A stretch of DNA of 64,000 nucleotides from Notolepis coatsorum (Eukaryota; Chordata; Actinopteri; Aulopiformes; Paralepididae): contig OZ020587.1 of the NCBI GenBank assembly GCA_963971535.1, positions 158,637,328-158,701,327 on the forward strand, given 5' to 3'. The translations under genes were made by a program, and so were the position numbers. Under the pieces are notes generated by a model. It saw only the letters and a list, made by a program, of their open reading frames with translations. It was not told the DNA's origin and made no database searches. Each line of letters begins with the position of its first letter. The first letter of the stretch is position 1. This document shows positions 25,943 to 39,900 of this stretch, piece by piece.

Positions 25943-28900
25943 GGTAACAAAAAAACATTATTTGTTAGCACCTTTCATACAAGAATTGCAGTCCAAAGTG
26001 CTTCACAGCAGTGATGTGGACACAAAATAGACATAGGCATAAAATTAGCATAAAATTGGTATAATTATAGACAGGCGTAAAGTTAGCATGAGAATTGATA
26101 TTAATTAAAAACTCTGGGGAGAAAAATCATATATTTCTAGGTAATAGGTTTCTGACAACATGAAAAGCGCACTTTCGCCTTTCCACACACATCGTTTTAT
26201 AATAGATTTCTGACATTTAAAAAGACTATTAGCGGGTTTCATACAGACAGATGGACAGACGGTAAATGGAAAGACAGTTGTTGTCAAATATCAAAAGAAA
26301 GTACCATTGAATTCTTCCAGTATCAAGTCGGGGGAGTTCATGTAATACCGATCACAAAGGTTTCTTGCATTTTCATAGGCGTCTGTGGAGAAAAGAGAAG
26401 AGTTTCATGAACGCCAGACAGATAAACACTCGCTTTGAACAATAAGAACAATATTCTAATGCTCTGTTACGGTGTGTTATGTTATAGAAAATATTATATG
26501 TTTTCCACCCATTACATCACTTGTACAGCTACTGGGCCTATTAGTGTGTACAGTGTACATACAGCATGTTCATAGCTCTGTTAAATACATATTCTCTGTA
26601 CAGCCTTGACTAGTTAATATGGCAGGGGGTTAACCTGCTTCTGGGTTAACCTTCTGTAGTGTGGCAGTGAAAGGGTTAACTAGCTACAACTCAGACACTA
26701 GGGCGACAGTCTTAAAGGAAAACGCCAACATTTTGGGAAATTAGCTTATTTAACATCTTCCCTGGAGTTAGACAAGAAGATACATACCTTTTTTGTCTCT
26801 GTGCGTGCATTTAGCTTTGGGAACAGACGCTCCGTTAGCATAGCTTAGCTTCATCACTGGAAGTGAGTAGGGGCCGGAGCCCGACGTTCCCTTACTGTGT
26901 ATAGTTTGATTGATTGATTGAAAAGTTTATTAACAGATTGCAGAATACACTCCAAATACAACTCCAAAACGTTCATGTAAACATGTTGTGACCTGTGTAT
27001 TCACCACGTGGAGAAATAAAAAATAATTGAATTAGACAATTACGTTTTATAAGCAAATATACTTGCCCAACCACTACTGTATGAGCGCAGCCAGTGATTT
27101 CAACGTGACGGCGTGTTTGTTTACATTCTCATTCATTCAAAAGATCCGAACCGATTGAAGTTTATAGATACCATGACTTGAAATCCTCTTACCTTGACGA
27201 TTAAAAGCCTCCCCAATTTAGAAAACAGTAATCCAATGGCTGGTATTGATAATAATACTACTAACGCTCGGAGCTAACCAGCAACCGGACAATCAAGCAG
27301 ATAACGAGAGCAATGACTTCCTTTCTGGGGGGTTTCAAAATAAAAGAGCGACGTCTATAGCAGCGGAAAACGTTTATTTTGTACATTATCTAACGTTAAC
27401 ACGAACCTAAACTAACTTTAGGTTAGTTGTAACGTTAGTTTAGGTTCGTGTTAACGTTAGATAATGTACAAAATAAACGTTTTCCGCTGCTATAGACGTC
27501 GCTCTTTTATTTTGAAACCCCCCAGAAAGGAAGTCATTGCTCTCGTTATCTGCTTGATTGTCCGGTTGCTGGTTAGCTCCGAGCGTTAGTAGTATTATTA
27601 TCAATACCAGCCATTGGATTACTGTTTTCTAAATTGGGGAGGCTTTTAATCGTCAAGGTAAGAGGATTTCAAGTCATGGTATCTATAAACTTCAATCGGT
27701 TCGGATCTTTTGAATGAATGAGAATGTAAACAAACACGCCGTCACGTTGAAATCACTGGCTGCGCTCATACAGTAGTGGTTGGGCAAGTATATTTGCTTA
27801 TAAAACGTAATTGTCTAATTCAATTATTTTTTATTTCTCCACGTGGTGAATACACAGGTCACAACATGTTTACATGAACGTTTTGGAGTTGTATTTGGAG
27901 TGTATTCTGCAATCTGTTAATAAACTTTTCAATCAATCAATCAAACTATACACAGTAAGGGAACGTCGGGCTCCGGCCCCTACTCACTTCCAGTGATGAA
28001 GCTAAGCTATGCTAACGAAGCGTCTGTTCCCAAAGCTAAATGCACGCACAGAGACAAAAAAGGTATGTATCTTCTTGTCTAACTCCAGGGAAGATGTTAA
28101 ATAAGCTAATTTCCCAAAATGTTGGCGTTTTCCTTTAACAGTGTTCTCATAACAACGGCCAAGGTTTAGGAGATATGACATTTGGCCTGGACTCCACTCC
28201 AGTTCTAATGTGAAGACATAACAAAGCCCCTAGAGGCCATATTTTGTTGACATTTTCTCACTAGGGCATTTTTGTTTACCTTTCTTGTCATATCTGGGCA
28301 TCTTATGTAAGTCATGTCAATTATGTATTTATTGTAAGTCTGATCAGAGCTCTTTCTCACTTTCTGGTCAGACGTTTGTGTGTCTGATTGTAAACTGAGC
28401 GCTGTGGCCACAGAAATAAACTATGTTCTATATTTTCTTATATACAAATGGACTCGTCTGAATTTCTACAGTTTCACTGTTTGGCTCATTTAAAATATTC
28501 CACAACATATCGTATACAGATCTTCTGATCAAAATAGGTTTAATAGTAAAATGTAGGTTAAATTAGCTTTGGCTAAAAGAGGAGCGCTCTCATCGTGGCC
28601 AGCTAGGAGACACACTGAGGAAGAGAAGACAATTGGGGGCCCGTGAACTTAGCTATTGTTTTGGGGCAACCAGGAGGATCCCTCTACAACCAGGAGGATC
28701 CCTCTACAACCAGGAGGAATCCTCTACAACCAGGAGGAATCCTCTACATTGGCAAAAGTGATCGTCTTTGTCACTGAAACAGGAATCTCCTGCAAGGGTT
28801 TTACTCGCTGTGGGGAACCCCTCTCTACCACACAGCTCTCATTCAAACGCTCTGTGAGGGAAGAATGAGGCTTTTAGATTATTCTGCGATCATTTCTATT

Positions 28901-36922: not shown

Positions 36923-39900
36923 ACTACTGTACTATTACAGGTATTGAAATGAACAATGCAACTTCCTTATAAAAAGAATTTAATAAGAAAATTGCATATT
37001 AAAATATCGATACTTGCCGTCCTTGTAGATACAGTATTGCCATGCAAAGTATCGCGATAATGTACTGTATCGATATTTTCCCCCACCACTAGCAATTTCC
37101 CACCCTACATTTTGGGGAGCGCTTTGAGGAGTCTAGAAAAGCGCTATATAAATGTAATGATCATTCATTCATTGATTCAAGTGGTGTCATCTACTCACTG
37201 TGCTGGTTGAGGAGCATCCTGATAGATATCCTGCTCATGTAGAACCGGTCCAGGAAGTACTGGACGTTCTGGCTGGCGATGGGGTCGGTGCCGTGGGTCT
37301 CCTTGTACTCCACCACCCCCTGGGCCATGGTGGGGATGACGTTGTTGTGGCGGTTCCTGATCTTTATGACAGCATCTGTGAAGCTGGTCAAGAACAGGGG
37401 TCAGAAAAAGATGGGCGTACTCACACCACCAGACAAGAGCTGAGAAATTGTATTGGGGGGGGGGGGTTAATACAGCTTATTACATGGTGTTTTCACATTC
37501 GCCGAAATGCTTGCTTGTGATTGGTCAATAGCGCGCGTCAGAGGTCAGTTATCAGACAATAATGACCGCTGTGGGACAATAATGACCGCTGTGCGCAGCT
37601 GTTCGCAATCAAGCCCACTGACATCAGTGCAATCAGACACTGCCGGTGTTCTGCTGCCGGGGAAGCTGCCGGCGATGACAGGGGGCGGAGCGATGAGCGG
37701 AGCCAGAACCAGTGTTGCGAGTCGATGTAAAATGAATTAGGTATATTGTTAGTAAGTTACCATGTAATAAGCGGGATAATGTATAGCTATACTCGATCAT
37801 TGTCGCAAAATAATTGACCTTCACTGACGTTTAAAACACCTCGCCGAGGCGGCTCGGTATTTTAAACTCCGTGTCGGTCAATTATTTTGCAACAATGACC
37901 TCGTAGCTATACATTATCCCTTACATAGCTATTGTGCTAATATATTTAGATTTTCTTTTTTGCTACAATAAAAATTTAAGTGGGATGACCAGACTGAAAC
38001 CGTATATCTTACTAAATAAAACAGATATGTATATTTATTTTTATAGCAGATGTTGACAAGGTTTTCCATTGGGGACATCATTTGCAGTTGAAAAGTAATT
38101 AATCGCAATATACCGCAACATTGCAATATATAGCAAAATTGTACGTAATACTATTGCACCGTGACTTAAAGGAACACGCCAACATTTGGGGAAATTAGCT
38201 TATCGTCTTCTTCTCCAGAGAGAGACAAGAAGATAGATACCAGTTTCCTCTCTGTGCGTTCAGTAGAAAGCTATCTGGCTGCACGTTAGCCTAGCTTAGC
38301 ACAATGAATGGAAGCGGACATGGCCGGTTAGCCTTTGGGAGAGGTGTTCGTTGGATAATGCCTAGTAAAAAGTAAAATGAGGATTCACCTCAGTAAAACT
38401 GAATCCAGGAAAAGGAAGATTGTTAGAAGCCTTCATTTGACACACAACCCTGACAGACTCCCCTGAAATGGTGCAGTGTGTTCCTTTAACTCATTCAGTG
38501 CCAGACCCGATATTTCTCTGGTTATCTCGCCAGCGGTTGAGTGCCATACCCGAGATTTCTCGGGTTTTGATCCTTTGATCTTTTTCCTCTGATCCCCGTT
38601 CTAAAACATCCTCCGGATCATTGTGTGTCCCTGGCCCGTTTGCCTACGTTGGAATTGCAATGCCGATCGAATATCACCAGGTGGCAGTATCGCCTACCTT
38701 TTGAACTCTGATAGAAAGGGAACAGGAGAGTCAATGAATGAACCGGACTATCGAGGCTCGCTCTGTGGGGGAGGAGCTCTTCCAAAGCAATCGCTGGCAG
38801 ATCTGCTCGCCTCAAAACCTATAATAGTGTCCCGTAAACACATGTAATTACATATAAGCAAGTAATCGCGATCGCCGATGGGATCATTGGAATTATTCTT
38901 TTTGGATTACCTTCTGGCTAAGGTAAGGACTATGTCTATTTTACCAAACCTGAAACATGTTTATGTAACGATCACAGTTCTGCGTTTTACCGGACGTAAA
39001 ACATGCTCAACAAACACGATCACGGTTGAGTTCCAACGACCCTTGATAATCTTGTGAAGGCACATGCGTACATGGTATATACCTTTGATTTGGGAGTATT
39101 TGGGGTTTCAGGCGGGCAACCAGAACGGTTTGGGCTTATTGCATAGAACACGTTTTATCTCGCGATCTATGGAAAAATTATTATCTTGGAAATGTGCGAT
39201 GTTTAGCGTGTAATAAACTACAGTGTGTAGAAACAAACTGTTTTTTTCCATGTTGGACTACAAGTAGTGTCTGTCAAATGAGCCACACCATTGTCTCCAC
39301 AGCTATAATACAGAACACACACACAGCTCTGCAAACATTGTGAAACAGTGAAAATTACCATTTTAAGCTGGCGTGAAGCGGCAGAGATGGGGACAGCCTA
39401 TGGCGCTGAATGAGTTAATAAAACCTGGACCAGACAGAACTGGAATAAAATGTTTGAATCAACTCACTCATAAGTCACTTTCTCATCATCTGCGTTCTTC
39501 TCTCTGAACTCGAGGATCTCCTCAAGACTCTGCACATACCTGGAGGAGAGAAACGTCAACAATCAAGACCTCGACAAGTTCTCCTCTCCCACAGAAGTGT
39601 GTCTGGAGTAGGGATGCACCGAGCCAATATTGATATCGGCCCCGATATCACTAAAATAGCTGGATCGGGTATCGGTTTAAAAAAAAATATATATATCGGA
39701 TTTATTTTTATATATAATAAGAAATAAAATAAGAAATAACAATTTAGTACATTTATATGTGTTAATTTGTTACATTTAGTTTCACTAAGTTAGGAAAGTA
39801 ATGTTTTAAGTCAAGCCTGATGTTGCCTTGCACAAAATAATTATCCCAGTCTCTTCCACACAGTGAGGCATACAGTTTATTAATTGAACAATGGGTATTG

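Follow-up and report, generated by a model that had tools for sequence, protein, structure and literature searches.

Why long palindromic transposons remain palindromic is an old question. In Y-chromosome palindromes the arms are held alike by arm-to-arm conversion. Among mobile elements, the portions at hand of a report on Galileo of Drosophila describe inverted repeats that are more than 99% alike within GalileoN-1 and within GalileoN-2 and about 7% apart between them, and a middle segment that runs in opposite directions in two related copies; ectopic recombination is offered there as the cause of the unequal repeats of GalileoN-4 and -5 (PMC2775673). The T2-MITEs, whose transposase is presumed to be Kolobok, are characterised by TTAA and a terminal AGGRR, according to the available sections of two reports (PMC6004289; PMC9587614). 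Template switching at short inverted repeats can both homogenise the arms and invert the spacer; in the yeast study, as far as its available text goes, the arms were about 7-16 nt (PMC8604942).

The window analysed here, a 64,000-nt stretch of DNA from the fish Notolepis coatsorum, contains two 705-nt arms in inverted repeat, with a single mismatch between them (26832 C versus 28018 A). Chance is not the origin of such a structure. The arm length, the near absence of mismatches (about one), the 17-nt spacer and the TTAA tips had all been given in the original prediction and are confirmed, as are its claims of one tail, LINE-like by its reading, in both arms and of a position within an intron of a PDK1-type gene. 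The features are as follows.

26712..27416, plus strand: left arm, 705 nt, including TTAA at 26712-26715 and the tip AGGAAAACGCC; matched at 40 scored loci of the same genome
26906..26946, minus strand: left-arm copy of the LINE-like 3' tail (arm positions 195-235, about 41 nt)
27417..27433, no strand: spacer, 17 nt, TTTAGGTTAGTTGTAAC
27434..28138, minus strand: right arm, complementary to the left arm at all positions but 28018, with TTAA at 28135-28138
27904..27944, plus strand: LINE-like tail in the right arm, mirror of 26906-26946
about 26305..26382, minus strand: PDK1-type exon with a cag acceptor, about 330 nt downstream of the palindrome in the direction of the gene
37194..37391, minus strand: stretch holding an upstream exon of the PDK1-type gene, with PDK1 as its best match (E 3.7e-32)

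Pairing of the arms breaks off within a few bases beyond both ends. The arms account for 1410 of 1427 nt, so that very long terminal inverted repeats form most of the element, and the longest ATG/GTG/TTG open reading frame overlapping it is 59 aa long, with no transposase gene. No internal tandem repeats build the arms; a tandem repeat search gives just a 44-nt centre region (27417-27460). A minisatellite of 4.1 copies of a 20-bp unit lies at 28667-28748, and Rfam has no match anywhere in the window. The stretch of about 41 nt at arm positions 195-235, which we take from the earlier sequence-only reading to be LINE-derived, also matches outside the palindromic element in several of the fetched loci. 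The host gene encodes a PDK1-type kinase and runs along the minus strand. Because PDK1-type exons are found on either side, the palindrome is placed in an intron, about 330 nt ahead of the cag acceptor. Judged by its sequence, the palindrome could plausibly extrude a cruciform, and double-stranded RNA is a plausible product of it as well.

A search of the same 3.42-Gb genome with the left arm as query gave 3831 first-look candidates, of which 40 were scored, and all 40 (the window and L009-L047) were fetched. Two arms of at least 660 nt are present in 16 of them, both tips with one short or odd arm in 11, and a single tip in reach in 5; in the other 8 the centre was unrecognised by the script. 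A 47-nt centre pattern has 1,582 genome matches at up to 3 mismatches (reversed control, 0). Forty of these centres were read, the first 30 and the next 10 listed, every one of them on contig C1 and identical to the pattern: both tips were in reach in 19, one in 14 and none in 7. The 17-nt spacer and the palindrome recur at other sites with other flanks, one spacer base being changed in L040 and L046. The idea that the arm had recently been duplicated in inverted form at this locus is therefore rejected, and the window palindrome is a single copy of a palindromic element that is dispersed in the genome, neither a duplication peculiar to this site nor an artefact. Single-arm and double-arm copies, both envisaged in the original prediction, are found among these loci. 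A pair of half-elements on C49 (L037 and L038) lies in opposite orientation, 46 kb apart, with an identical 29-nt outer flank, for which an inversion, a duplication or an assembly fault are options.

Three copies (L009, L012 and L053) are inserted at the identical TTAA within a very abundant repeat; the empty, single-TTAA form of this site has 36,736 genome matches at up to 3 mismatches. A single TTAA in the empty site, set against the occupied sites, is what duplication of a TTAA target leaves behind. It can be added that, by the flanks of these three and of L056, one TTAA of this repeat has been hit again and again.

The window copy has AGGAA next to TTAA at both ends, in agreement with the terminal AGGRR (5'-RR ... 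YY-3') of T2-MITEs, and the family ends read TTAA-AGGAAMACGCCAAC. Among recognised tips, 125 of 127 start with TTAA and 126 of 127 continue with AGG, counts that are biased upward by a recognition step demanding likeness to a 21-nt tip. A duplicated TTAA target is found in T2-MITE/Kolobok elements, and a TTAA target in piggyBac as well. The TTAAAGGA tip is absent in the 4 piggyBac loci that were read (116 matches scored of 2365 candidates), the true ends of which the script did not locate either, and no transposase with matching ends was found among these four; for the THAP domain, 150 matches were scored of 4181 candidates and the ends of none were read. The ends and the single-TTAA empty site fit a non-autonomous transposon of the Kolobok (T2-MITE) type. 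Many piggyBac transposase copies (PF13843 matches) score identically and have open frames of about 560 aa, which suggests that they spread in a recent burst. Two more T2-type tips (TTAAAGGAACACGCCAAC) lie in the window, at 38166 and 49473. The first belongs to a short TTAA element that had been predicted to be of this family; it does have its tip in common with the palindrome, with a different interior, and it starts at 38166, not at 38170.

Variants were counted in 16 complete copies and 22 single arms, or 38 of the 40 loci, L022 and L036 being left out for a truncated arm. A wider alignment with incomplete arms (23 two-armed loci) gave 23 shared variants that were one-armed in at least one carrier; because it misaligned the edges of deletions in L021, L039 and L011, it was dropped for the counts. 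Fifteen shared substitution variants are present in both arms of every two-armed carrier. Another 5 are mixed, with both two-armed and one-armed loci among their carriers, and 6 are never two-armed, with 2 or 3 carriers each; a CpG context applies to 3 of these 6 and to 6 of the 11 taken together. The eleven may reflect exchange that stayed incomplete or that took place between different elements, or else recurrent mutation. The large indels by which subfamilies are told apart follow the same course: a deletion of arm positions 187-403 is in both arms of 5/5 two-armed B copies (8 B copies fetched later have similarly short arms, 482-499 nt), a deletion of 189-218 is in both arms of 3/3 two-armed copies, and an insertion of 13 or 14 nt at 353 occupies both arms in the 7 two-armed copies with the site covered in each arm. 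L021, in which this insertion aligned to one, rearranged arm, was left out of the last count. One-arm deletions of at least 39 nt are each confined to a single locus in the structural comparison. In amplifying lineages, then, substitutions and indels come to stand in both arms; the two halves evolve as mirror images, and changes in one tend to reach both before spread.

Private variants have a different distribution, with 56 of 63 one-armed and 7 two-armed. Since 56 of the 63 private substitutions in the 16 complete copies are one-armed, the arms of the window copy are near-identical at least partly through youth. The suggestion that conversion keeps the arms alike is supported as a property of amplifying lineages. 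None of the one-arm variants of 5 complete A2 copies is common to another of them or to 6 A2 single arms. When each arm was judged against any other arm in hand, the two arms of a locus were closest to each other in 8/41 loci (L033, L034, L051, L055, L068, L070, L071 and L073) and in 2/4 further loci (L084 and L086). In the remaining loci they were not, as is expected where many young copies differ little from one source; in subfamily B this reflects unequal arms.

The arms of subfamily B differ over their inner ~110 nt. A search with one such arm as query, in which 40 of 2257 candidates were scored and which does not select loci with two arms of the other type (e.g., L063), found a query-like arm of 96-100% in 40/40; the second arm was 86-92% in 38/40, partly covered in some, and in the other 2 it was recovered over no more than 33 nt. 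No locus among the 40 scored had both arms at 96% or more. Thirteen B copies were read, and their arms are unequal in all except L063, which is equal-armed. Relative to the arms, the spacer of the 12 unequal copies stands 6 versus 6 in its two orientations, and relative to the flanks that of the 16 complete copies stands 8 versus 8. At outer-arm sites 94 (in CpG context) and 107 (not in CpG context), both-arm, u-only and d-only states occur in different B copies. L053, L061, L065 and L077 are separate insertions, because their flanks are unrelated. From these data, therefore, unequal arms can be transposed faithfully, arms exchange, and strong inner heterology can persist. A pre-existing inequality of the arms can be passed on, the spacer is found inverted relative to the arms, and subfamily B shows that not every arm difference gets homogenised.

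Outer arms are subject to replacement as well, as illustrated by a copy on C1:

L060, 712-2336: chimeric palindrome; both outer arms foreign, left end TTAACCC

The inner arm of L060 belongs to this palindromic family and its outer ~270 nt to another MITE, namely half of a ~448-bp palindrome that is present elsewhere. Its arms agree at 797/804 positions, the right arm ending in an N stretch. Outer pieces paired at the chimera spacing were found at 5 loci among 40 scored of 1338 candidates; the core was read in L060 only, a second candidate (C1:201466087-201467713) contains a centre match, and the other three are candidates by their spacing. L060 therefore indicates that outer arms, too, can be replaced on both sides.

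The window copy is probably, at roughly two chances in three, a recently inserted, non-autonomous TTAA transposon of palindromic form and T2-MITE/Kolobok type, whose arms are rewritten by template switching or arm conversion. Such an element would be moved in trans by cut-and-paste, as its ends and target duplication suggest. During replication or repair of the palindrome, a nascent strand may fold or jump from arm to arm at the inverted repeat; such a template switch, or else gene conversion between the arms, would rewrite one arm from the other in part or in full. The jump would sometimes flip the spacer, although inner-block exchange could account for the inversion instead. Transposition would then multiply the rewritten element faithfully, and an inserted copy would afterwards gather mainly one-arm changes and one-arm deletions. 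The data fit template switching and ordinary gene conversion alike and cannot separate the two; that the yeast arms are far shorter than 705 nt counts against the former.

It is conceivable, if doubtful, that arm rewriting is coupled to mobilisation, with an excision gap or the excised folded element being repaired and one arm templating the other. An element about to spread would then often be re-mirrored, its mobility ends included (compare the TTAACCC-tipped chimeras), and residents would mostly be untouched. If so, the palindrome would be a self-editing transposon that erases one-arm damage ahead of its spread.

An alternative that dispenses with exchange has the founder of each subfamily arise as a fresh inverted duplication of an older element's arm and later spread as it was. 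This would account for diagnostic variants that are two-armed next to private ones that are one-armed, and for a chimera whose outer ~270 nt differ from the family on both sides. It seems unlikely, in that a separate mirroring would be required for each small step (sites 9, 157/158, 581, 171, 173-185 and 94-116), and it leaves unexplained both the mixed states at sites 94 and 107 in subfamily B and the fact that one and the same arm inequality goes with either spacer orientation.

Gene conversion between arms that proceeds at a single, constant rate in all resident copies is a rather improbable account, despite the 7 private substitutions that stand in both arms of single copies, a 6-nt insertion in both arms of L028, and a divergence of 0.70% between the arms of L055, as against 1.99% from the closest arm of any other copy compared. 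With the 56 one-armed and 7 two-armed private changes, the model predicts about 9.4 one-arm differences standing in any source, yet 0 shared one-arm differences are seen in the A2 copies (P about 8e-5 under the model, a rough figure that ignores unsampled sources and unequal ages). The argument from rates, crude as its model is, favours quicker exchange in amplifying lineages; a founder mirrored just before its burst would give the same rate picture.

Very little likelihood attaches to obligatory re-templating at each jump through a foldback intermediate, one arm always being copied from the other. Shared variants of subfamily A are two-armed, as it would have them, and the available part of a review gives a foldback amplification model proposed from Angel MITEs (PMC12628747). 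In subfamily B, 38 of the 40 scored loci have one query-like and one clearly different arm, and four separate insertions (L053, L061, L065 and L077) are among its copies; re-templating at every jump is refuted there by the faithfully unequal arms. Perfect long palindromes are a familiar class of library or assembly foldback artefact, an explanation raised by the original prediction that can be set aside here, given flanks that differ on the two sides, TTAA at the element ends, the identical spacer at many loci with differing flanks, and other copies in which one arm is shortened.

The family offers, within one genome, many hundreds of copies, subfamilies with equal and with unequal arms, and a spacer whose orientation can be read. 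How fast arms are rewritten before and after insertion, how long the tracts are and how the spacer flips therefore become directly measurable, and template switching, should it be the mechanism, would act here over arms of hundreds of bases.

A literature search, with most subscription papers outside its coverage, returned nothing recognised as the present family from titles and the beginnings of abstracts. Y-chromosome palindromes are single chromosomal palindromes, in contrast to the dispersed mobile family found here. With Foldback-like elements the palindrome has in common its very long inverted repeats, but not arms built of tandem repeats. The T2-MITEs of Xenopus are alike in TTAA target, terminal AGGRR, short non-autonomous form and presumed Kolobok transposase; the available text does not present them as long, nearly perfect palindromes whose arms co-evolve, whereas arms make up nearly the whole of the present element (PMC6004289). 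The Angel MITE of zebrafish resembles it as a teleost MITE that folds on itself and has prompted a foldback amplification model, as given in the accessible part of the review, but foldback copying at each jump is contradicted here by subfamily B (PMC12628747). Template-switch systems, in the portions of the reports at hand, combine arm homogenisation with inversion of the spacer or loop, both of which occur here too, in non-mobile arms of a few to tens of nt as opposed to a mobile element with 500-700-nt arms (PMC8604942; PMC8794818). Galileo and its Foldback-like relatives, from the sections available, are similar in their long inverted repeats, arms alike within copies and reversed middle; Galileo differs in belonging to the P superfamily, in its 7-bp target duplication and in a middle segment of about 350 bp (PMC2775673). 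That arms are alike within copies was thus known already from Galileo, and what is found here is that a TTAA element whose arms measure about 500-700 nt shows both the arm and the spacer signs.
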